Part shown: one piece after another, positions 23,870-36,937 of the stretch
How the letters are laid out: every line of letters starts with the position of its first letter
Position numbering within the stretch: the stretch's first letter is position 1
Assembly: GCA_003221695.1 (NCBI GenBank)
Contig: QHSX01000066.1
Coordinates: 1 to 52,202 of the forward strand
Length of the DNA: 52,202 nt
From: Candidatus Rokuibacteriota bacterium
Lineage (GTDB): Bacteria > Methylomirabilota > Methylomirabilia > Rokubacteriales > CSP1-6
Reading direction: 5' to 3'
Program-made: the position numbers and the translations under genes
The notes under the pieces: generated by a model
Databases searched by the model: none
Told to the model about the DNA's origin: nothing
Seen by the model: the letters and a program-made list of their open reading frames with translations, nothing else

Positions 23870-24384
23870 AGGACCGCGCCGCCTTGTGGCTCATCGGCGC
23901 GATCTCGGTGGGGGTCGTCCTCCTGGTCGCGTTCCTCCTGCTCGGGCACCGACGGGACGCAGCGATCGCGCCCACGGTCGCCGCGCTGCCGCTCCTCAAC
24001 GCGTGCCTCAACGCCACGAGCGCGGCACTGCTCACGGCGGGCTACCTCTTTATTCGTGACAAGCGCGTGGCCGCGCACCGGGCGTGCATGGTCTCCGCTC
24101 TCGTGGCGTCAAGCCTCTTTCTCGTCTCTTACGTGACCTATCACGCCCTCGCGGGCTCGCGGCCGTTCGGCGGGCAGGGCTGGGTCCGGCGCGTCTACTT
24201 CCTCCTCCTGGTCTCGCACGTCGTCCTGGCCGCGGCCATCGTGCCACTCGCGCTGACCACGGTCTACCGGGCGCTCAGCGGCAACTTCGCGCGGCACGTG
24301 AGGATCGCCCGCTGGACGCTCCCCCTCTGGCTCTACGTCTCCGTAACGGGGGTGCTCGTCTACTGGATGCTGTACCACCACTGA
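23866..24384 (+). CDS. DUF420 family membrane protein
   Basis: A 172-aa protein with five predicted membrane segments. The DUF420 pattern is clear: LPLLNACLNATSAALLTAGY, HRACMVSALVASSLFLVSY, TYHALAGSRPFGGQG, FLLLVSHVVLA and the C-terminal RWTLPLWLYVSVTGVLVYWML, quoted in parts. Conserved histidines at the membrane surface suggest metal or haem contact; relatives are linked to cytochrome oxidase assembly, but no oxidase gene is here. It is coupled to the NRAMP-like gene by an ATGA overlap, and its stop is 2 nt before a strong hairpin. Confidence 0.83.
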   Translation: MKDRAALWLIGAISVGVVLLVAFLLLGHRRDAAIAPTVAALPLLNACLNATSAALLTAGYLFIRDKRVAAHRACMVSALVASSLFLVSYVTYHALAGSRPFGGQGWVRRVYFLLLVSHVVLAAAIVPLALTTVYRALSGNFARHVRIARWTLPLWLYVSVTGVLVYWMLYHH

Positions 24385-24386
24385 TG

Positions 24387-24418
24387 TTGAGGGGGGACCC
24401 GCGACGGTCCCCCCTCAA
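24387..24418 (+). terminator. Strong 13-bp hairpin after DUF420
   Basis: A perfect inverted repeat, 13 bp per arm (24387-24399 and 24406-24418) with a 6-nt loop, begins two bases after the DUF420 stop. It lacks a T-run, so it may end transcription with a factor or protect the 3' end. The 3' arm recurs in the three repeats that follow. Confidence 0.6.
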
Positions 24419-24610
24419 GCTCCCCTGTTCGCGCCTCGAGCGAGCGTGAGGCTCGCTCGCTTCGGCGGCCGACCCGCGACGGTCCCCCCTCAAGCTCCCC
24501 TGTCCGCGCCTCGAGCGAGCGTGAGGCTCGCTCGCTTCGGCGGCCGACCCGCGACGGTCCCCCCTCAAGCTCCCCTGTTCGCGCCTCGAGCGAGCGTGAG
24601 GCTCGCTCGC
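24396..24610. repeat. Three direct 75-bp repeats with internal hairpins
   Basis: Units begin at 24396, 24471 and 24546 with exact 75-bp spacing and very few differences; the third is cut after about 65 bp. Each unit contains a 9-bp stem CGAGCGAGC/GCTCGCTCG with a 5-nt loop, and the GGTCCCCCCTCAAG arm of the upstream terminator. The 337-nt stretch 24385-24721 has no gene; it holds these repeats and two further hairpins. There are no spacers, so it is not a CRISPR array. Confidence 0.85.
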
Positions 24611-24647
24611 GTCCGCGGTCCACCTGCCCCTAGGACCTGCGGTTCGA

Positions 24648-27859: not shown

Positions 27860-28447
27860 ATGCGCGGCCTCGAGCAGATCCCCTGGCTCTACGATCCGGT
27901 CTGCGCGCTGTACGAGCTGCTGGGGCTCGACCGGTGGCGACGGTGGCTCGTCGCGGGCGCACGTGGGCTCGCGCTCGACGTGGGGTGCGGGACCGGGCGG
28001 AACCTGCCCCTCTACCGCGAGGGCGTTCGGGTCGTCGGGCTCGATCCCGCGTGGGCCTCGCTCCAACGCGCACGGCGGCGCGTGCCCCACATCGCGCTGG
28101 TCCAGGGGAGCGCGGAAGCGCTCCCGTTCAGCGACGCCACGTTCGACACGGTGGTGAGCGGCCTCACCTTCTGCAGCGTCCCGGACGCGCGGCGCGGGCT
28201 CGCCGAGGTCCGCCGTGTCCTCCGTCCGGACGGCCAGCTCCGCATGCTCGAGCACGTGCGCTCGATCACGCCGTGGAAGGCCCGGGTGCAGGACAAGATC
28301 GAGCGGTTCTGGGTCTGGCTCTCCGGCGGCTGCCACCCGAACCGCGACACCGAGCGCGCCGTCGAGGCGTCGGGGTTCGTCATCGAAGCGGACGGACAAC
28401 GGGCCAAGGGTGACATGCGCCGCTTCTCGGCGCGTCCGGCGGGCTAG
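27860..28447 (+). CDS. Class I SAM-dependent methyltransferase (UbiE/BioC-like)
   Basis: A 195-aa methyltransferase. SAM motif I is ALDVGCGTGRN (about residues 38-48), motif II VVGLDPAWASL, motif III LPFSDATFDTVVSGLTFCSVPD, then LRPDGQLRMLEHVRS. The short length and LEHVRS motif match the small methyltransferases often called UbiE/COQ5-like or methyltransferase-11. It is 3 nt from the FIST gene. Its TAG stop falls on a CTAG palindrome that also provides the stop of the converging HyfG-like gene, giving a 4-bp overlap. Confidence 0.84.
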   Translation: MRGLEQIPWLYDPVCALYELLGLDRWRRWLVAGARGLALDVGCGTGRNLPLYREGVRVVGLDPAWASLQRARRRVPHIALVQGSAEALPFSDATFDTVVSGLTFCSVPDARRGLAEVRRVLRPDGQLRMLEHVRSITPWKARVQDKIERFWVWLSGGCHPNRDTERAVEASGFVIEADGQRAKGDMRRFSARPAG

Positions 28448-30024
28448 AGATCGTTCCCTGAGTAGGAGAGGTTGAAGGACTTGTTGCAGAGCGGGAAGTC
28501 GGGGACGATGTTCTTCAGCACCGCGTACTCGAGCGCCGCCCAGTTCCTGAACGACGGGTCCACCACCTTGACCCGCGCGAGCTTCGCCGGCGTCTCGGCG
28601 GACACCCAGTGCCAGAGGGGTCCGCGCCATGCCTCCACGAGACCGAACGCATGGCCGCCCACGCTGAGGGGCGGGAGCGGCGCGCGCGTCGCCCCGTCGG
28701 GTGTGGCCGCCGCCGCGGCGCGGATGAGCCGCGCCGACTCGCGCACCTCGTCCACGCGCACCATCGTCCGCGCCCACACGTCGCCAGCCTCGTAGAGGGC
28801 CGCGCGCACCTCGAGCTCGCCGTAGGCGGCGAAGGGCGCGTCGCGCCGGAGGTCGGCGTCGATCCCACTCGCCCGTCCGACGAGCCCCACGACTTGCATC
28901 TCCCGCGCGGTGTGCGTAAAGAGCCGCCCGGTGCCCTGCAGCCGCTCGAGCACCATCGTGCTGTCCAGGCAGAGCTGCGCGACCTCGAGGAACTCGCCGA
29001 CGAGCGCCTCGACGGTCGTCGCCAGTGGGGCGAGCGGGGCGCGCTCGACCGGGCCCGTCACGCCGCCCGGCACGACCGCGCCGCGGAGCAGCCGGTGACC
29101 GGCGACCCGCTCGTTCAGCCGGAGCAGTTCCTCGCGGATCCTGAAACAGTGGGCGTGGCCGAAGGCAAAGCCCGTGTCGTTGACGATCATGCCGACGTCG
29201 GCGACGTGGTTGTAGAGGCGCTCGAGCTCGAGGAGGACGACGCGCAGCCATCGGGCGCGCGCCGGCACGTCGCCGCCGGCGAGTGCCTCGAGCGCCTGGC
29301 AGTGGGCTAGCGCGTGACCGACGCTCGTGTCGCCCGAGATGCGCTCGGCGAGCGCCGGGGTCCGATCGAGCGGCAGCGTCGCGAAGAGCTTTTCGGTGCC
29401 CTTGTGGGCGAAGCCGAGCCGCGTCTCGAGGTTCACGATCGTCTCGCCCTGGACGCTGAACCGGAAGTGGCCGGGCTCGATGATCCCGGCGTGCACCGGT
29501 CCGACCGTGATCTCGAAGATGCCTTCGCCCTCGACGCGGCGGAAGGGGAAGGGCTGGCCCTCGTCCCTGAAGTCACCGCGCGGCGTCGCGTCCCGCCGCA
29601 ACGGATGATACCCCGCGGGCCAGAACTGGTGGAGGGCGAGCCGGCGCAAGTCCGGGTGCCCGACCGGCACGAGGCCGACCATGTCGTGGATCTCGCGCTC
29701 GAACCGACTCGCCGCGAACGACCGCGTGGCGAGGGAGGGGAACCGCGCGTCCTCGGGCGCGACGGAGACGAGCACGGCAGCGCGCGGCGCGAGCGTGACG
29801 GGCGCGAAGGCATAGACGAGCGTGAAGTCGCCCGAGCTCGCGCGCGTGTCCGCCGCGGCGAGGAACTGGCAGGTCGCGCCGAGCTGCGCGAGCCGGTCCG
29901 CCAGCGCGGGAATCTCGCGGGCCGCCACACGGCACTCGAGCGCGTCGGCGGCGCGCGCCGTCACGCCGGTCGCCCCCGACTCGACGACGGCCCGCGTGAG
30001 CGCGTCGAGGGGAACCCGCGTCAT
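28444..30024 (-). CDS. HyfG/HycE-like large subunit lacking [NiFe] cysteines (Ehr-type)
   Basis: A 526-aa fusion of NuoC-like (residues about 60-165; FEREIHDMVGLVPVGHPD) and NuoD-like domains (about 170-526). The CxxC motifs that bind [NiFe] are absent: the N-terminal site reads AERISGDTSV (about residue 227) in place of the hydrogenase RxCGxC, and the C-terminal site reads DFPLCNKSF with one cysteine instead of DPCxxC. The chain therefore cannot be a hydrogenase catalytic subunit. This matches energy-converting hydrogenase-related (Ehr) complexes described as intermediates between complex I and group 4 hydrogenases. It likely couples an unknown redox or ion process to the membrane arm. Last gene of the operon; starts one base past the HyfF stop. 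Confidence 0.87.
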   Translation of the reverse strand: MTRVPLDALTRAVVESGATGVTARAADALECRVAAREIPALADRLAQLGATCQFLAAADTRASSGDFTLVYAFAPVTLAPRAAVLVSVAPEDARFPSLATRSFAASRFEREIHDMVGLVPVGHPDLRRLALHQFWPAGYHPLRRDATPRGDFRDEGQPFPFRRVEGEGIFEITVGPVHAGIIEPGHFRFSVQGETIVNLETRLGFAHKGTEKLFATLPLDRTPALAERISGDTSVGHALAHCQALEALAGGDVPARARWLRVVLLELERLYNHVADVGMIVNDTGFAFGHAHCFRIREELLRLNERVAGHRLLRGAVVPGGVTGPVERAPLAPLATTVEALVGEFLEVAQLCLDSTMVLERLQGTGRLFTHTAREMQVVGLVGRASGIDADLRRDAPFAAYGELEVRAALYEAGDVWARTMVRVDEVRESARLIRAAAAATPDGATRAPLPPLSVGGHAFGLVEAWRGPLWHWVSAETPAKLARVKVVDPSFRNWAALEYAVLKNIVPDFPLCNKSFNLSYSGNDL

Positions 30025-30025
30025 C

Positions 30026-31447
30026 TCAGCCGGCCACCACGGCCGCGATCCGGTCGAGTGCCCGGGCGAGACCGGGGGGCCACGCGAGCCCCGTGAGCAG
30101 GAGCAGCAGGAGCGCGACGACCACGGGGACCGCCGGCCACGCCCCCCGTGACGCGTGCACGGGAGGCCGCGCCGGGACGCCGTGGAGCATCGTCTGCGTC
30201 GTCCGCAGCAGCCCCGCGAACGCCAGGACGAGGAGGACCAGGCCGACCGCCGCGACGCCGACCCGGCCCTCGCGGAAGCCCGCGCCGAAGATCATCACCT
30301 CGCTCGTGAAGAGCCCGAAGGGCGGCAGGCCCATGAGCGCGAGCATCGCGGCGAGGAACGCGCCACCCGTGCGCGGCAGGGGCCCCAGCAGCCCACGCAC
30401 CGCGAGGACCTCGGCGGAGTCGTAGGCGGCGCGGATCCGCCCGGCCAGGAGGAACAGCGCCGACTTTGCGAGCGCGTGATTGGCGAGGTGCAGGAGCGCG
30501 CCGGTCACGCCCCACGCGCCCCCGAAGCCCAGGCCGAGACAGGCGATGCCGATGTGCTCGACGCTCGAGTAGGCGAGCATCCGCTTGAAGTTCTGCGAGG
30601 TCCACAGGAACAGGGCCGCGACCGCCATCGAGGCGACGCCCAGCACCAGGAGGATCCGCCGCGCGAACGCCGGCCCCGCCGCGAGGTCCACGACCGGCTT
30701 GAAGCGCAGGAGCGCGTAGACGCCGACCGCGAGGAGGACGCCCGACATGAGCGCGCTGACGGGCGCCGGCGCCTCGCTGTGCGCATCGGGGAGCCAGGTG
30801 TGCATGGGCACGAGCCCCGCCTTGGTGCCGTAGCCCACCACGAGGAAGACGAACGCCAGCTCCATGACCCGTGGCGGGAGCCTCGGCGCGACCCGGAGGA
30901 GCGTCGTCCACCGGAGCGCGTCGACCTCGTCGCTGAAGAGCTGGATGTCGGCGAAGTAGACGAGGACCGTCCCGAGGAACGCGATCGCGATGCCGACCGA
31001 GCAGATCAGGAGGTACTTGTACGCGGCCTCGAGGGAGGCGCGCGTACCCTCGAAGTTCACGAGGAAGACCGAGGCGAGGGTCGTGCCCTCGATCGCGACC
31101 CACATGAGCCCGACGTCGTCGGTGGTCACCGCAAGGAGCATCGTGAACACGAACAGGTGGAAGAGCGGGTAGAAGCGCCCCGAGGCGTAGCGCGGCGCCT
31201 CCGTCGCAGCGAGCCCGTCCACCAGACCGATGAGCATGATCATCCACGCCGACAGCGCGTCGGCGCGCAGGAAGCCGTCGAGCGCGGTCAGGACGCCGTC
31301 CATGTGGACCGCCAGGGCGACCGCCAGCGCCGCCGCGAGGGTGAGCGCCGCGGTGACCGCGTGCACGGCCGTCGCCAGGCCGCCGCGCCACCGCGCCAGC
31401 AGGAGCGCGCCCGCCAGGGGAACCGCGAGCACGACGAGGAGCATCAT
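30026..31447 (-). CDS. HyfF-like proton-conducting membrane subunit (NuoM/N type)
   Basis: A 473-aa integral membrane subunit with about 13-14 helices of the antiporter-like proton-conducting family. MWVAIEGTTLASVFLVNFEG carries the conserved TM5 glutamate, and KAGLVPMHTWLPDAHSEAPAPVSALMSG is the invariant TM7-8 region, cited in parts. FSSVEHIG-type text reads LAYSSVEHIGIACLG. The chain should move ions together with HyfB. The start is ATG 31447, overlapping the HyfE stop by four bases; a second ATG follows at once. The 720-codon open frame extending upstream to 32188 is read-through of other genes. Confidence 0.88.
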   Translation of the reverse strand: MMLLVVLAVPLAGALLLARWRGGLATAVHAVTAALTLAAALAVALAVHMDGVLTALDGFLRADALSAWMIMLIGLVDGLAATEAPRYASGRFYPLFHLFVFTMLLAVTTDDVGLMWVAIEGTTLASVFLVNFEGTRASLEAAYKYLLICSVGIAIAFLGTVLVYFADIQLFSDEVDALRWTTLLRVAPRLPPRVMELAFVFLVVGYGTKAGLVPMHTWLPDAHSEAPAPVSALMSGVLLAVGVYALLRFKPVVDLAAGPAFARRILLVLGVASMAVAALFLWTSQNFKRMLAYSSVEHIGIACLGLGFGGAWGVTGALLHLANHALAKSALFLLAGRIRAAYDSAEVLAVRGLLGPLPRTGGAFLAAMLALMGLPPFGLFTSEVMIFGAGFREGRVGVAAVGLVLLVLAFAGLLRTTQTMLHGVPARPPVHASRGAWPAVPVVVALLLLLLTGLAWPPGLARALDRIAAVVAG

Positions 31448-32085
31448 CCGCGCAGCTCCCGGAGCCGCGCCTCCTCGGTCGAGGCGTGCTCGCGGCGAAC
31501 CTGCGCGACGACGCCCTCCATGATCAGCACGACGACGAGGACGTCGAGGAAGACGCCCGCCTCGACGATGGACGGCAGGCCGTAGGTCGCCAGGATCGCG
31601 AGGGCGAAGATGCCGTTCTCGAAGACGAGGAAGCCCAGGATGTGGCCGAACGCGTCGCGGCCGGTCACGCAGAGGTAAAGGCCGATGAGCGCCATGGCGA
31701 AGGCGAGCGGGATTCCGCCCTCCGTCGGCAACTCGGTCGCCCTGTTGACGGGCAGCATGATCACGTACGCGGCCACGACCAGGACGCCCGCGACGAGGAG
31801 CGCGATGCCGGACGAGTGGCCGGGGGCGATCGGGCGCACCGGCGCGCCGGCGCCGATGCGCCAGAGCACGCGCGGGATCACCCACGCCTTGACAACCAGG
31901 AAGACGGCGCCGACCCCGAGGAGTGCCCACTTGCCCGCGAGGACGCCAATGGCGGTGGCGAGCACGGCGAGCAGCGCGGACTGGACCGCGAAGAGCCGAA
32001 GCCGGGCCGGCCAGCTCTGGCGCCAGACGAGGAGCAGCGTCGCGGTCAGACCCAGGAACGCAAGGAGATTCGCGGTGGCCGTCAT
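31444..32085 (-). CDS. HyfE-like membrane subunit (hydrogenase-4 component E, NuoK-type)
   Basis: A 213-aa membrane protein with about six or seven helices. FAMALIGLYLCVTGRDAFGHILGFLVFENGIFALAI contains the HyfE/NuoK glutamate motif (FENGIF), quoted in two parts here. The charged tail (VRREHASTEEARLRELRG) is cytoplasmic. ATGA overlap with the HyfC stop. It is part of the ion-translocating membrane arm. Confidence 0.85.
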   Translation of the reverse strand: MTATANLLAFLGLTATLLLVWRQSWPARLRLFAVQSALLAVLATAIGVLAGKWALLGVGAVFLVVKAWVIPRVLWRIGAGAPVRPIAPGHSSGIALLVAGVLVVAAYVIMLPVNRATELPTEGGIPLAFAMALIGLYLCVTGRDAFGHILGFLVFENGIFALAILATYGLPSIVEAGVFLDVLVVVLIMEGVVAQVRREHASTEEARLRELRG

Positions 32086-33026
32086 GGAACGAGGAACACC
32101 GCGGTGACGGAGAGGAGGGCGAGAGCGAACGAGCCTGCGAGGAGCTCCGGCACGCGGAAGAGCCGGAGCTTGGCGACGGTCGTTTCAAGGACCGCGAGGG
32201 CGGCGGCGAGCACGGCCAGCTTGCCGGCGAGCGCCAGGAGCCCGAGCAGGAGGGGCACCGGCTCGGCGAGGCTCGTCACGCCCCAGGGGAAGAAGAGGTT
32301 GGCGAGGAGGGTCATGAAGACGAACAGCCGCATCGCCGACGCCCATTCGACCAGGGCCAGGTACCGTCCCGAGTACTCGAGCACCATCGCCTCGTGAATC
32401 ATCGTCAGCTCGAGGTGCGTGGCCGGGTTGTCCACCGGGAGCCGTCCGGTCTCGGCCAGCATGACGATGAAGAACGCGACGAACGCGAGGAGGTGCGCCG
32501 GGTTCGCCGCGAGCAGCGGCTCGCGCGCGAGGCGCTCGACGACGTCGCCAAGGTTGATCGTCTCCGCGCGGAGTGCGAGGGCGAAGACGGCAAGGATGAT
32601 CGTCGGCTCGGCGAGCGCGGCGATCGCCACCTCACGGCTCGAGCCCATGCCGCCGAAGGCGCTGCCCGAGTCGAGCCCGGCGAGCGCCAGGAAGAAGGTC
32701 CCGAGCATGAACAGGTACATGAGGAGGATGATGTTGCCCGCGAACCCGAGCGCCGGCCGTGCCACGAGGATCGGGACGACGAGGGCCGTCACCAGCATCG
32801 TCGCGACCAGGACGTAGGGCGTCGCGCGGAAGACCCACGAGGTCGTCGTCGAGACGACCGGCTCCTTGCCGAGGAGCTTCCGGAGATCGGCGTAGGGTTG
32901 CCACGGGCTCGGGCCGCGGCGGCCGGCGAGCCGCGCCTTGAGCGTGCGCACGACGCCGACGAGCAGAGGCGCGCCCGCACCAGCGACCAGCACCTGGCCG
33001 AGGGCGATCAGGAGCGTGGCGATCAT
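32082..33026 (-). CDS. HyfC/HycD-like membrane subunit (NuoH-type)
   Basis: A 314-aa membrane protein with eight helices, equivalent to complex I NuoH and the hydrogenase anchor HycD/HyfC that links the peripheral and membrane arms. RRGPSPWQPYADLRKLLGKEP and LPVDNPATHLELTMIHEAMVLEYSG are the two diagnostic loops. The conserved acidic residues of the E-channel (AETGRLPVDNP) are present. The true start is ATG 33026, overlapping the HyfB stop by ATGA; the longer frame to 33347 lies inside HyfB. Confidence 0.88.
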   Translation of the reverse strand: MIATLLIALGQVLVAGAGAPLLVGVVRTLKARLAGRRGPSPWQPYADLRKLLGKEPVVSTTTSWVFRATPYVLVATMLVTALVVPILVARPALGFAGNIILLMYLFMLGTFFLALAGLDSGSAFGGMGSSREVAIAALAEPTIILAVFALALRAETINLGDVVERLAREPLLAANPAHLLAFVAFFIVMLAETGRLPVDNPATHLELTMIHEAMVLEYSGRYLALVEWASAMRLFVFMTLLANLFFPWGVTSLAEPVPLLLGLLALAGKLAVLAAALAVLETTVAKLRLFRVPELLAGSFALALLSVTAVFLVP

Positions 33027-34933
33027 GCGAGCGCCAGCAAGAGGAGGAGCGCCGCGAAAATGTAGGCGAGGTAGACGTTGGCGCTGCCCGACTGGATCGC
33101 CCGCGCCCGGTGAGCGACGGAGCGCAGCGCGTCGAGGGCCGGCCGATAGAGCCAGTCGTCGAAGATCGAGCGCGTCGGGTTCGCGTACTCGATGCGCTGG
33201 ACAAAGTAACGCGCCCCCGGGTGGAACGTGATGTCCAGGCGCTTCTCGGGGCGGTAGAAGAAGCCGAAGACGCGCCGGAACGGGTCGGCGAAGGCGGTCG
33301 CAGTGCACTCCATCCGCGGGGTCTGCAACATACGCCCGCATCCCCACGTCTCGTAACGCCGCTGGCCCCGCGCCGCCCCCGCCAGGCGGAGGGCGATCAG
33401 CGGCAGCGCGAGGGCCGCCCCGAGCGCCACGGCGATCGCGAGCGTCGAGAGCGTCGCGAAGCCGCCTGAGACGCCGAGCGTGAGCCAGTCGCCGACGGCC
33501 ACCGGCGCGCGGTCGCCGGTCAGGGCGCCCGCGACGGTGACGAGCGCGGGGACGACCAGCGTCGCCCCCAGGCCCAGCGCGACGCAGACCACCGCGAGCG
33601 CGACCATCGCCGCGCGCATCGCGGGCGGCGCCTCGTGCGCGCGCGCGGCGGCGTCACCGCGGGGGAGCGCCAGGAACGTGATCCCGAACGCCTTGACGAA
33701 ACACGCCATCGCGAGACCGCTCGTCAGTGCGAGACCCGCGACCCCGAGCGCGAAGACGAGGTTGAGCATGGGCTGGGCGATGCGGGTATTTTGGAGTAAG
33801 GCCACGAAGGTGAGCCACTCGCTGACGAATCCGTTGAGCGGCGGCAGCGCGGCGATCGCGGCCGAGCCCACCAGGAAGCACGCGGCCGTCCAGGGCATCC
33901 GCTTGATGAGCCCGCCCATCGCCTCCATGTTGCGCGTGCCCGTCGCGTGCACGACGGCGCCCGCACCGAGGAAGAGGAGCGCCTTGAACGTGGCGTGGTT
34001 GAGCGTGTGGTAGAGCGCGGCCGCGAGCGCCAGGAGGGCGAGCCCCTCGAGCCCGGCGCCGTGATAGAGCATGCCCGCGCCCACGCCGATCAGAATGATC
34101 CCGACGTTCTCGATCGAAGAGAACGCGAGAAGCTTCTTGAGGTCGTTGTCCACGAGCGCGTAGAGCACGCCGATCACAGACGACACGGTGCCGGCGAGCA
34201 GCACCGCCACGCCCCACCACGCGGGGCCGGCGCCGAGCCAGTCGAGGCCCGCGCGGAGGAGCCCGTAGACACCCAGCTTGATCATGACGCCGGACATCAG
34301 CGCCGAGACGTGGCTGGGCGCCGCCGGATGGGCGAGCGGGAGCCACACGTGGAGCGGGATCACGCCCGCCTTGCCGGCGAAGCCCGCCGCCAGGAGGACG
34401 AACACGACGCCGCGCGCTCCGGCGCCGAGCCCGGGCGCCGCCGCCCGCCAGTCGGCGAAGCGGAGGCTCCCGGTCCACGCGCCCATGAGCAGCATGCCGG
34501 CGAGCAGGCACGCGAGCCCGGCGTGGGTCATGACGGCGTACACCCAGGCCGCGCGCACCGACGCGCGCTCCTCGGGCTCGTGGAGGACCAGGAAGTAGGA
34601 GGCGAGCGACATCAGCTCCCACGCGATCACGAACGTCATCGTGTTCGCCGCGAGCGGCACGACGCACATGGACGCGACGAACACGGGATAGGCGAGCGCA
34701 CCGCGCGCTGAGCGTTCCGCGGACCCGGCGGCGTAGAAGGACGCGGGGAGGGCCACGCCGCCGACGAGTACCAGGAAGAGCCCGGCGAGGGGATCGAGCG
34801 TCAGCTCGAGGCCGCCGAGCGGCACGAGCCAGTCGACGACGACGGTCCAGGCGCTGCCCGCGACCCCGCCGAGCCCGAGGACGAGCGCGACGAGCCCGAT
34901 CGCTGCCGCGGCGAGGGCGCCGGCTGCCGCCAT
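33023..34933 (-). CDS. HyfB-like proton-conducting membrane subunit (NuoL/MrpA type)
   Basis: A 636-aa membrane protein with around 16 helices. FVIAWELMSLASYFLVLHE gives the TM5 glutamate, and KAGVIPLHVWLPLAHPAAPSHVSALMSGVM gives the TM7-8 lysine/histidine region (quoted in parts). LLAFSSIENVGIILIG and HTLNHATFKALLFLGAG follow. It is the larger antiporter-like subunit, with a C-terminal extension ending near DITFHPGARYFVQR. The start is ATG at 34933, overlapping the NuoB-like stop by one base. Together with HyfF it gives two antiporter-type channels. Confidence 0.88.
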   Translation of the reverse strand: MAAAGALAAAAIGLVALVLGLGGVAGSAWTVVVDWLVPLGGLELTLDPLAGLFLVLVGGVALPASFYAAGSAERSARGALAYPVFVASMCVVPLAANTMTFVIAWELMSLASYFLVLHEPEERASVRAAWVYAVMTHAGLACLLAGMLLMGAWTGSLRFADWRAAAPGLGAGARGVVFVLLAAGFAGKAGVIPLHVWLPLAHPAAPSHVSALMSGVMIKLGVYGLLRAGLDWLGAGPAWWGVAVLLAGTVSSVIGVLYALVDNDLKKLLAFSSIENVGIILIGVGAGMLYHGAGLEGLALLALAAALYHTLNHATFKALLFLGAGAVVHATGTRNMEAMGGLIKRMPWTAACFLVGSAAIAALPPLNGFVSEWLTFVALLQNTRIAQPMLNLVFALGVAGLALTSGLAMACFVKAFGITFLALPRGDAAARAHEAPPAMRAAMVALAVVCVALGLGATLVVPALVTVAGALTGDRAPVAVGDWLTLGVSGGFATLSTLAIAVALGAALALPLIALRLAGAARGQRRYETWGCGRMLQTPRMECTATAFADPFRRVFGFFYRPEKRLDITFHPGARYFVQRIEYANPTRSIFDDWLYRPALDALRSVAHRARAIQSGSANVYLAYIFAALLLLLALA

Positions 34934-35442
34934 CAACGCCGGCGGCCGATCACATCAAGGAGCGCCGCGAGGATCGCCGCAGGCGAGGGCGGGCAGCCCG
35001 GAACGACGGCGTCCACGGGGACGACCGCGTCCGCGCCCCCGACGACCGCGTAGGACCCGCGGAAGATCCCGCCGTCGCGGCCGCAGTCGCCGACGGCGAT
35101 CACGAGCTTCGGGTCGGGCGTCGCCTCCCACGTCCGGCGCAGCGCCTCGGCCATGTTCCGCGTCACGGGCCCCGTGACGAGCAGGCAGTCGGCGTGGCGC
35201 GGCGAGGCGACGAAGGAGAGGCCAAAGCGCTCGAGGTCGTAGTGCGGTCCCGTCAGGCCGGCGATCTCGAGCTCACAGCCGTTGCACGAGCCGGCGTCCA
35301 CCTGGCGGATCGCCAGCGACCGGCCGAAGCGGCGCTGAATCTCCCCGGCCAGGCGCGCGCCGAGGCGTTCGACGTCGGACCGGCCCGGGGGCGGCTCGGT
35401 GACGATGCCGGTCCGGAGGGCGATGCGGAGCTGGCGGCGCAC
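34933..35442 (-). CDS. NuoB/HycG-like iron-sulfur subunit
   Basis: A 169-aa soluble subunit of the NuoB/HycG family. The four cluster-binding cysteines are kept: Cys53 and Cys56 (SCNGCELEI, the CxxC spacing of hydrogenase small subunits and not the CC of complex I), Cys120 (GDCGRDGG) and Cys150 (PGCPPSP). FVASPRHADCLLVTGPVTRNM is the family core. So the proximal [4Fe-4S] cluster is retained although the partner large subunit has lost its metal site. The start is GTG 35442, three bases after the ArsR stop, so regulator and complex share one transcript. Confidence 0.88.
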   Translation of the reverse strand: MRRQLRIALRTGIVTEPPPGRSDVERLGARLAGEIQRRFGRSLAIRQVDAGSCNGCELEIAGLTGPHYDLERFGLSFVASPRHADCLLVTGPVTRNMAEALRRTWEATPDPKLVIAVGDCGRDGGIFRGSYAVVGGADAVVPVDAVVPGCPPSPAAILAALLDVIGRRR

Positions 35443-35445
35443 CGG

Positions 35446-35808
35446 TCAGCGCCGCCCGGGCCGGCGCGCCTCGCGGCGGAGCGCGCGCAGCATCGTCTGG
35501 GTGCCGATGAGCTGGTTGTTGAAGATCCGCCGGGCGACGTCGAGCAGCTCGCCCACCGCCTCGTCGCGGATCGCGTAGCGGACCGCCGTGCCCTCCCGGC
35601 TGGCGACGACGACGTTCTTGGCGCGCAGGACCGCGAGCTGCTGTGACACCGTCGACTGGTCGAGGTCGAGGGCCGCCTGCAGCTCTCGCACGCCGCGCTC
35701 GTGGCCGCGAAGGAGCTCGAGGATCCGGATGCGGATGGGATGCGCGAGGGCCTTGAAGAACTCGGCCTTGAAGGACTGCAGCTCCGTGGTCGTCGCCGCC
35801 ACGCCCAC
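35446..35808 (-). CDS. ArsR-family winged-helix transcriptional regulator
   Basis: A 120-aa ArsR/SmtB-type repressor: FFKALAHPIRIRILELLRG, ERGVRELQAALDLDQSTVSQQLAVLRAKNVV (recognition helix; quoted in parts) and SREGTAVRYAIRD (wing). It has no cysteine, so it is not a thiol- or arsenite-sensing member. It leads the Ehr operon. I start it at GTG 35808 because an upstream ATG at 35826 lies inside the promoter described below, and the residues MIYKIF before this point are not family-like. That leaves an almost leaderless message; the ATG remains possible if the promoter is elsewhere. Confidence 0.83.
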   Translation of the reverse strand: MGVAATTTELQSFKAEFFKALAHPIRIRILELLRGHERGVRELQAALDLDQSTVSQQLAVLRAKNVVVASREGTAVRYAIRDEAVGELLDVARRIFNNQLIGTQTMLRALRREARRPGRR

Positions 35809-35816
35809 AAAGATTT

Positions 35817-35845
35817 TGTATATCATAATATTACTATATAGTCAA
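35817..35845 (-). promoter_or_regulatory. Promoter of the arsR-Ehr operon
   Basis: On the minus strand TTGACT (35845-35840), 17 nt spacing, then TATACA (35822-35817) makes a good sigma-70-type promoter, in an unusually AT-rich island in this GC-rich DNA. Predicted transcript start is near 35810, just before the GTG start. Confidence 0.6.
35819..35840. promoter_or_regulatory. Near-palindromic 22-bp operator, likely ArsR site
   Basis: TATATCATAATATTACTATA (first 20 of 22 bases) is its own reverse complement except for two base pairs near the arms. The palindrome covers the spacer between the -35 and -10 boxes and overlaps both, as for autorepression by an ArsR dimer. Confidence 0.6.
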
Positions 35846-36937
35846 TCCTGGGTCGCCGCCATCGCCGAGCAGCGCGCGGTACACCGCGGCGGTGCGCGTC
35901 ATGGCCGCGTCGAGCGTGAGCCGCGCGGCGACCGTCGCCTGGCCCGCACGCGCCATCGTGCGCGCCCGCGCCGGATCGCGGAGGATCTCGAGCACCGCGC
36001 CGGCGAGCGCGTGCGCGTCGTCGGGCGGGACGAGCCGCCCCGTCTCGCCGTCGCGGAGGAGCTCCGGGCTTCCCCCCACGGTCGTGGCGACGACGGGCGT
36101 CCCGACCGCGAGCGCCTGCGGGATGACCTGCGACGTCGCTTCCGAGCGGATCGAGGGGAGCACGAGAACGTCCAGGGCGGCCATCACCTCGGGGATATCG
36201 CGACGGAACCCCGTCATCATCACGCGCTCCGCGAGGCCCAGGGCCGTCACGCGCCGACGGACGTCTTCGTAGCCGACGCCGTCGCCCACGATCACGAACC
36301 GCGCGCGCGGCGCCACGGCCAGGATCTGCCGCGCCGCCTCGAGGAAGACGTTGTGGCCCTTGGAGCCGCGGATGTTGGCGACGAGACCGACCAGGGGCTC
36401 TCCGGCGCCGAGCCGCAGCTCGCCGCGCACGGCGGCGCCCGAGACGGCGGGGTGGAACCGCGTGGTGTCGACGCCGGGCGGGATCGCGACGACGCGCTCG
36501 GGCGGGATCCCGGCCGCCACGACGAGCGCGCGCACGGCCTCACCGCTCGTGACGATGCGGTCGGCGAGGCGGTAGACGAGCGCGCTCCGGATCGCGATCG
36601 ACACGTGGCGGCTCCGCACGACGGGGAGGCCGAGGGACCGGGCGGCCAGCGCGCCGAGCCAGCTGTCCGTCGAGCTGTGGGTGTGGACGAGACTCACGGC
36701 GCGCGCCCGCATGAGGCGGCGGAGCGCCCAGAGGGCTCCGAGGTCGACGACGCCGCGCATCCGCACGGCGACCGCGTCCACCTCCGCGGCGCGCGCCTCG
36801 GCCAGGAGGCCACTCCCAGGCTGGCACGCGACGAGCGCCCCCCAGCCGTGGTTCCGGAGCCAGCGCGTTTCGGCGAGGATCCTGAGCTCCTGGCCGCCGA
36901 GCCCGAGCGACGCCTCGGTGTGGAGGATCGTCGGCAT
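35834..36937 (-). CDS. Glycosyltransferase family 4-type protein
   Basis: A 367-aa GT-B glycosyltransferase. The N-terminal domain starts HTEASLGLGGQELRILAE (acceptor side), with VHTHSSTDSWLGALAA. The C-terminal donor domain has PPGVDTTRF, GLVANIRGSKGHNVFLEAA and LPSIRSEATSQVIPQALAVGTPVVAT, with the E-x7-E-type signature. It should transfer a sugar from an NDP donor to a lipid or polysaccharide, at the cytoplasmic face of the membrane. Donor and acceptor cannot be predicted. Its last codons (GLTI and TAG) lie inside the promoter of the arsR operon. Confidence 0.85.
   Translation of the reverse strand: MPTILHTEASLGLGGQELRILAETRWLRNHGWGALVACQPGSGLLAEARAAEVDAVAVRMRGVVDLGALWALRRLMRARAVSLVHTHSSTDSWLGALAARSLGLPVVRSRHVSIAIRSALVYRLADRIVTSGEAVRALVVAAGIPPERVVAIPPGVDTTRFHPAVSGAAVRGELRLGAGEPLVGLVANIRGSKGHNVFLEAARQILAVAPRARFVIVGDGVGYEDVRRRVTALGLAERVMMTGFRRDIPEVMAALDVLVLPSIRSEATSQVIPQALAVGTPVVATTVGGSPELLRDGETGRLVPPDDAHALAGAVLEILRDPARARTMARAGQATVAARLTLDAAMTRTAAVYRALLGDGGDPGLTI

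Follow-up and report, generated by a model that had tools for sequence, protein, structure and literature searches.

In Mycobacterium tuberculosis the locus Rv0081-Rv0087/88 is taken here to open with a cysteine-free ArsR gene followed by NuoB-like and Hyf/Hyc-like genes, and to encode the predicted formate hydrogenlyase-like complex. Classical ArsR/SmtB metal sites are formed by Cys residues or by alpha-5 His ligands, the latter in sites of the CzrA kind, and the operators of CzrA, SmtB and NmtR are AT-rich inverted repeats lying over the promoter. According to a published report (He 2011, as described in the available part of PMC6177252), Rv0081 represses its own promoter, where it binds to an inverted repeat. 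In the same part of that paper a 59-bp piece of the Rv0081 upstream region served as the positive binding control, and Rv0081 alone did not bind the 22-bp palindrome of Rv3334, at which it is a proposed activator. Rv0081 has been called a hub with a broad regulatory role (excerpt of PMC4757040), and the ArsR cluster that holds it is described as largely uncharacterised and linked to hypoxia (excerpt of PMC10509353). For the Ehr complexes, experiments are said to be needed (excerpt of PMC6349859).

The window, which is the whole stretch of 52,202 nucleotides analysed here, carries an arrangement like that of the mycobacterial locus, with a cysteine-free ArsR gene standing first before NuoB-like and Hyf/Hyc-like genes. 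Judged by sequence comparison, this arsR, the first gene of an Ehr operon, very probably encodes an autorepressor dedicated to that operon, acting through an operator in its own promoter.

Gene content and layout of the operon

The coordinates of the features are collected in Table 1. The original prediction placed a cysteine-free ArsR gene 3 nt from the NuoB-like gene, which was borne out, the arsR frame ending at 35446 and the nuoB-like gene starting at 35442. The six genes after arsR adjoin or overlap one another in the list of open reading frames of the minus strand, and the first long frame beyond the nuoCD-like gene (27860-28447) lies on the opposite strand; we therefore infer that arsR and the six complex genes form a seven-gene single operon. 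The arsR-first operon of nuoB-like and hyf-like genes was also found in relatives recorded as Deltaproteobacteria, Acidobacteria and Chloroflexi, a comparison that establishes the gene order.

Profile searches (Pfam and NCBIfam, with several of the NCBIfam matches below the curated cut-offs) identified group-4-hydrogenase-like subunits together with antiporter-like membrane subunits. The translated large subunit is without the CxxC pairs of the NiFe site, reading RISGDTSVGH and ending in a C-terminus with one Cys at what we take to be the positions of the Ni-Fe ligand cysteine motifs, and the complex was therefore classed as Ehr. Upstream of arsR, the 3' end of the glycosyltransferase gene (its final codons and the TAG) falls within the -35 element and the candidate operator; the operator was also kept at three loci (L008, L009 and L010) where no glycosyltransferase was found upstream. 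Elsewhere in the window, at 24275-24623, frames with a head-to-tail protein repeat in two to three copies probably reflect a short tandem DNA repeat.

Table 1. Positions of the genes and of the predicted regulatory elements in the window
Feature	Coordinates	Strand	Remarks
nuoCD/hycE-like large subunit	28444..30024	minus	last gene; PF00346 and PF00329
hyfF-like antiporter subunit	30026..31453	minus	PF00361; NF005044 E 3.2e-122, below cut-off
hyfE-like subunit	31444..32085	minus	NF008556 E 6.6e-16, below cut-off
hyfC/nuoH-like subunit	32082..33035, start not fixed	minus	PF00146 E 3.9e-45
hyfB-like antiporter subunit	33023..34936	minus	PF00361; NF005086 (hydrogenase 4 subunit B) 646 bits against a cut-off of 667, slightly below
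nuoB-like subunit	34933..35442	minus	first structural gene; PF01058 E 1.4e-32
arsR	35446..35808	minus	proposed autorepressor of the ArsR/SmtB family, without cysteine; 120 aa if started at GTG 35808
AT-rich island	35807..35845		flanking 100-nt profile windows mostly 65-82% GC
-10-like element TATACA	35817..35822	minus	TG one base upstream; final consensus T missing
Candidate operator	35819..35840		near-palindrome, 9/11 pairs; conserved core 35820-35839 = ATATNNNRATATYNNNATAT
Glycosyltransferase, upstream of arsR	35834..36937	minus	PF13692, PF00534; TAG stop 35836-35834
-35 element TTGACT	35840..35845	minus	read from the sequence

Predicted promoter and start codon of arsR

Read 5' to 3' on the minus strand, the predicted promoter consists of TTGACT (35845-35840), 17 nt and TATACA (35822-35817), followed after 8 nt by GTG (35808). 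The letters and spacing of the TTGACT-N17-TATACA promoter were thus as had been proposed; however, TATACA is without the last T, and a strict promoter scan detected no promoter. A TG one base upstream, as present here, turns a -10 element into an extended -10. The sharp AT-rich island that had been proposed around this promoter was recovered, as the lowest-GC 33-mers of the 52-kb window (5/33) all begin at 35807-35814.

The ATG at 35826, given as the start of arsR in the list of open reading frames, was rejected because it lies upstream of the -10 and would be unusable from this promoter. GTG 35808 is the likely start codon on sequence grounds: a start-codon candidate occupies the same place (-27 from Leu10) in 10 of 21 Rokubacteria-type loci, and the remaining loci have one within about four codons of it. 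The 8 nt between the -10 and the GTG would leave little or no leader, and since no ribosome-binding site is visible in the sequence before GTG 35808 and the transcription start is expected 1-3 nt upstream of the GTG, the arsR mRNA is probably leaderless. TTGA stands at the same place relative to the conserved site in 17 of 31 distinct family loci, is 1-2 bases off in 5 and is absent there in 9. At three Ehr loci (L049, L051 and L056) the candidate operator runs into the arsR ATG (..ATATG), so that the putative repressor site and the start codon share bases.

Conservation of the candidate operator in the family

The 22-mer at 35819-35840 had been predicted to span the spacer and both promoter boxes. 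In addition to the spacer it includes the final -35 base and bases one to four of the -10, and neither box is covered whole. Of 5000 base shuffles made from the 46-nt island, 77 reached a pairing of 9/11, so the palindrome in this single sequence is barely beyond chance and would not convince alone. A whole-genome pattern search of the 4.6-Mb genome to which the window belongs returned the arsR operator as the only ATATNNNRATATYNNNATAT site at <=1 mismatch.

What decides the case for an operator, at the level of sequence, is conservation in the family rather than the lone palindrome. A search for ArsR in 60 relatives gave best matches that were 65-96% identical in the same family and 48-51% identical in one group of class members, some of the 60 having distant matches alone. 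The regions upstream of the related arsR genes carry the same 20-mer, ATAT-NNN-RATATY-NNN-ATAT, which is often immediately preceded by TTGACT. At E<=1e-25, arsR was found in 35 of 57 family genomes (37 places), and comparison of coordinates in the 57 genomes gave 27 sites matching ATATNNNRATATYNNNATAT at <=1 mismatch, 26 of which lie just upstream of this arsR, and 3 sites for the reversed-pattern control; since the pattern was derived from sequences preceding arsR in many of the genomes, finding it at arsR is in part built into the search, while its absence elsewhere is not. The sole family site away from arsR was in a genome (G072) where no such arsR was found, and 11 of the 37 family arsR loci were without a site at <=1 mismatch. 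Conservation of the palindrome beside orthologous arsR genes, the test that had been proposed beforehand, was passed on these counts.

For a shuffle test, 61 Ehr-linked upstream regions were reduced to 47 distinct ones by removal of 14 duplicates, 31 of the 47 being from the family, and the best match in each was compared with those in 300 dinucleotide shuffles of the 44-nt island. None of the 300 shuffles was as good in 17 of the family loci, 0.3-3.7% were as good in 12, and 19-34% in two (L014 and L016); outside the family, L052, L061, L071 and L108 were at chance (14-41%). The 31 distinct family loci comprised 12 exact matches, 9 with one mismatch, 6 with two and 4 with three or four. An argument from covariation was dropped, as the observed pairing in the 27 of these 31 loci with <=2 mismatches equalled the expectation from independent columns: the three inner positions of each half-site pair at chance, and facing positions are conserved without covarying.

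Outside the family, conservation as assessed by whole-genome pattern search is weak, with 6 of 19 sites in 24 non-family genomes lying at a matched ArsR (one of them a distant match, in G050) and 3 sites for the control. Probes for ArsR, SulP, carbonic anhydrase, PEP carboxykinase and Ehr found nothing near five sites (two in G044 and one each in G042, G072 and G055) drawn from the 14 that were not at a matched ArsR, two of the stretches probed ending at contig ends. A second site in the class-level relative G044, ATATAAGAATATTTGCAGAT (G044:C8:74036-74055, position 4037 of L141), is flanked by sequence that is almost the same as that around the arsR operator of L029 and lies upstream of a 189-aa lipoprotein-like frame; it is a possible extra member of the regulon. 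The nearest relative, G001, holds two arsR copies (on C185 and on C19, the latter L003) that are 96% and 94% identical to that of the window, each with an exact operator, which would be explained by a duplication or by an assembly of mixed strains.

Sites at Ehr and SulP loci

Further relatives were drawn from a scan of named genomes, and the best 80 of 561 confirmed candidates (L032-L111) were analysed; many of these are close kin, and the 80 are not independent. Among these best 80 of 561, tblastn searches found Ehr genes within 8.5 kb of arsR in 35, a SulP transporter in 39 and both in none. Three loci with a partial Ehr set (L032, L053 and L069) bring the Ehr total to 38, and 3 of the 80 have neither. 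The identity of SulP was confirmed by Pfam in the five cases checked (PF00916 with STAS).

Over the 1,205,376 bp around the best 80 of 561 relatives, 69 of 71 sites at <=1 mismatch, with overlapping sites counted separately, fell in the 350 nt that precede an arsR, a sulP or a first Ehr gene. The reversed pattern gave 1 site in the same 1,205,376 bp and none at arsR, sulP or the first Ehr gene. Counted by locus among the best 80 of 561, a site at <=1 mismatch was at the expected place in 56 of 80 (35/39 SulP, 20/38 Ehr and 1/3 others). Ehr loci without a site at the expected place numbered 18 of 38 at <=1 mismatch and 9 of 38 at <=2; at the latter threshold, 29/38 had a site and the reversed pattern itself scored in 5/38, and because this control is unclean the main counts use one mismatch.

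In 21 SulP loci of the best 80 of 561, mostly from Paenibacillus and Cohnella, 28-52 nt separate the site from the sulP match that follows it, and 19 of the 21 are without a site at arsR. The sulP gene is upstream of arsR in two of these 21 (L088 and L104) and in L107, where the site is 92 nt before sulP, and it is divergent in L054, L081, L086 and L093, with the site 68-88 nt before it. In L055 the site is about 330 nt before the first matched nuoB codons of an Ehr operon whose far end faces a convergent arsR. When the ATATNNNRATATYNNNATAT pattern was written, no sulP promoter had yet been examined. Comparison thus establishes the site at the promoter of the target, and the putative operator is seen to move with the target gene, be it Ehr or SulP.

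L055 and L107 both come from JAAXUL01, one Chloroflexales MAG, which holds two ArsR paralogues of the subfamily, one beside Ehr and one beside SulP, with the operator at one mismatch before each target. A DabA-like partner was suspected in acidobacterial Ehr loci, but the lone gene scanned, in L061, was a second antiporter-type subunit: at L061:10522-14609, consecutive 684- and 681-aa frames lie at the hyfB match, and the second is an antiporter-type PF00361 protein.

Actinobacterial and plasmid relatives

Actinobacterial relatives have a different palindrome upstream of arsR, TTGCNAANNTNNGCAA. Within 183 kb (13 loci), all 13 exact TTGCNAANNTNNGCAA sites are upstream of arsR or sulP, 4 of them at sulP, and the reversed pattern gave none, the pattern itself having been derived from arsR-upstream sequences; allowing one mismatch gave 19 sites, 15 of them at arsR or sulP. 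In the same 183 kb, the 300 nt preceding carbonic anhydrase or PEP carboxykinase contained no exact site. The PEP carboxykinase gene is downstream of arsR on the same strand.

Sixteen plasmid loci, not all actinobacterial, were taken from 34 matches: SulP was found in 10, carbonic anhydrase in 4, PEP carboxykinase in 5, Ehr in 1 (Allomeiothermus) and none of these in 3. A 297-aa protein without a Pfam match follows arsR at L119:7407-8300 and has matches in L114, L115, L121, L123 and L129; it precedes PEP carboxykinase in five of these six actinobacterial plasmid loci.

The ArsR regulator

Membership of the ArsR/SmtB family is established by profile comparison (NF033788, 83.1 bits with a cut-off of 55; PF01022, 40.5 bits with a cut-off of 22). 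The closest solved structure is that of Rv0081 (6jmi; E 2.2e-20, the next being 8.5e-11), and the two proteins are 48-49% identical over the printed stretch of the alignment. The signal had been predicted not to be sensed through thiols, which agrees with the protein: it has no cysteine, nor do 109 of 111 distinct relatives in the region from Leu10 on, and the missing cysteines exclude thiol-based sensing. The translation has no histidine after residue 36 and therefore cannot form a CzrA-like alpha-5 metal site from histidines, so that neither the Cys nor the alpha-5 His ligands of a classical metal site are present, which leaves room for a metal site of different composition. Near-invariant residues include K14, F17, F18, H23, P24, R26, S55, L58, L61, R62 and Y78.

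On a poorly resolved tree of 112 rows and 111 columns, the Ehr/SulP labels need 8 changes, at least 5 of them forced by starred branches. In the labelling, L114 and L121 (carbonic anhydrase but without a match to SulP) were entered as SulP, Rv0081 was presumed to be Ehr and 6 rows were left unlabelled. Rv0081 groups on this tree, many forks of which are unresolved, with relatives from Actinobacteria that are associated with SulP or carbonic anhydrase.

Proposed mechanism and what the site is

In the mechanism proposed for the autorepressor, a cysteine-free ArsR dimer would bind the AT-rich operator of 20-22 bp, which fills the space between the -35 and -10 and extends over them, and would bar RNA polymerase from the single promoter serving arsR and all six complex genes. 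When the signal is present the dimer would release the DNA, and a leaderless or near-leaderless mRNA would be made. As arsR is the first gene, the level of repressor would rise together with the complex, and the response would thereby be limited.

The conserved AT-rich stretch might instead be a sigma-factor promoter and nothing else, its symmetry arising from ATAT runs; the TTGA and TATA parts do coincide with the -35 and -10, the half-sites do not covary and the lone palindrome is a 77-in-5000 event. However, the central ATAT of the spacer is conserved and no sigma contact is known to require it, and outside the family the same 20-mer, in a pattern without TTGA, precedes sulP or Ehr genes. 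Together with the 19 SulP loci (best 80 of 561) that have the site at sulP and none at arsR, and with the actinobacterial loci, where a different palindrome is found at arsR and sulP alike, this makes a promoter without an operator very unlikely. That the site is the operator of another Ehr/SulP regulator, arsR being a co-transported passenger, is most unlikely: 26 of the 27 family sites are at this arsR, the actinobacterial palindrome changes at arsR and sulP together, as expected if ArsR reads both, and Rv0081 is reported to bind its own promoter (available part of PMC6177252). Such a second regulator would nevertheless accommodate some Bacillota Ehr operons (L058, L075 and L106) that have arsR last and a site, with two mismatches, solely before the first gene, and the binding of ArsR at the site is itself predicted from sequence comparison.

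Candidate signals

For the proposed autorepressor, the SulP neighbours, some of them with carbonic anhydrase or PEP carboxykinase, suggest inorganic carbon or a linked pH/ion balance, and inorganic carbon is our guess at the leading candidate signal. The wider proposal, that the members of this widespread ArsR subfamily without cysteine are repressors responsive to inorganic carbon (CO2/HCO3-) and guard SulP or Ehr via one 20-bp operator design, is tentative and on the whole doubtful. It draws on the 38 Ehr and 39 SulP neighbours (best 80 of 561), on the at least five forced label switches on the tree, and on carbonic anhydrase in 4/16 and PEP carboxykinase in 5/16 plasmid loci. Independent evidence is slight: in M. 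tuberculosis, Rv0081 is among 21 genes induced by 5% vs 0.5% CO2 at both pH values, by 2.75- and 1.71-fold (Table 1 in the available part of PMC11895460). Against this, Rv0082-Rv0087 are absent from that CO2-induced table in the same available part, DosR or others could be the cause of the Rv0081 response, SulP may carry sulfate, and exact actinobacterial sites are absent from the 300 nt before carbonic anhydrase or PEP carboxykinase. If the proposal is true, SulP and Ehr would offer the cell two different routes for coping with one stress, and Ehr would belong to an inorganic-carbon or linked pH/ion response instead of being a hydrogen or formate enzyme.

Repression could proceed as proposed with a different input. 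A low-oxygen or redox cue, as proposed for Rv0081, is unlikely; Rv0081 is induced in early hypoxia and belongs to the DosR regulon (available part of PMC6177252), but this induction can stem from DosR instead of Rv0081, the present protein has no cysteine and no known cofactor site, and neighbours such as SulP and carbonic anhydrase do not suggest oxygen. Distinctly unlikely is a metal ion, as in the classical ArsR/SmtB sensors, given the absence of cysteine and of histidine after residue 36, neighbourhoods that are Ehr or SulP in 77/80 (best 80 of 561, metal transporters not being among the genes searched) and the assignment of Rv0081 to a cluster of ArsR proteins without an obvious metal-sensing role (excerpt of PMC10509353). 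It would agree with the NCBIfam name (metalloregulator ArsR/SmtB), with the P-type ATPase genes annotated as cation- or copper-translocating near the plasmid relatives L118 and L127, and with the available part of PMC6177252, which leaves the metal response undecided.

Comparison with known systems

The M. tuberculosis locus has the same arrangement and reported autorepression, so the kind of system is already known. As far as the literature searched shows, the alternation of Ehr and SulP and the operator common to both targets are new: among the matches listed, from open-licence literature and few subscription journals, there was no ArsR-SulP, ArsR-Ehr or ArsR-inorganic-carbon link besides the mycobacterial locus. 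An operator that follows its target from Ehr to SulP would give a handle on the inducer of Rv0081-type regulators and on the job of Ehr: it brings together a repressor, the defined DNA site that it would read and the two alternative kinds of target gene, and signals could be screened with a sulP-promoter reporter in soil bacteria, Paenibacillus among them. The SulP-side relatives offer a clue to the ArsR signal, and the operator can serve as a search pattern for further members of the Ehr/SulP regulons.

Unlike Rv0081, which is described as a hub (excerpt of PMC4757040), the regulator of the present genome has a single operator at <=1 mismatch; the actinobacterial relatives carry a different palindrome, in a set of compared sequences that did not include the site of Rv0081 itself. 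The complex is like the Ehr complexes (excerpt of PMC6349859) in its group-4-hydrogenase-like set with two antiporter-like subunits and a large subunit without Ni-Fe ligand cysteines, but the descriptions in that excerpt concern the enzyme, whereas the present finding concerns the regulator. With the ArsR/SmtB autorepressors CzrA, SmtB and NmtR the regulator shares a small winged-helix family and an AT-rich operator predicted over the -35 and -10; unlike them, it has neither a cysteine nor a histidine after residue 36, its gene precedes those of an energy complex, and its relatives are found beside an anion transporter as well.
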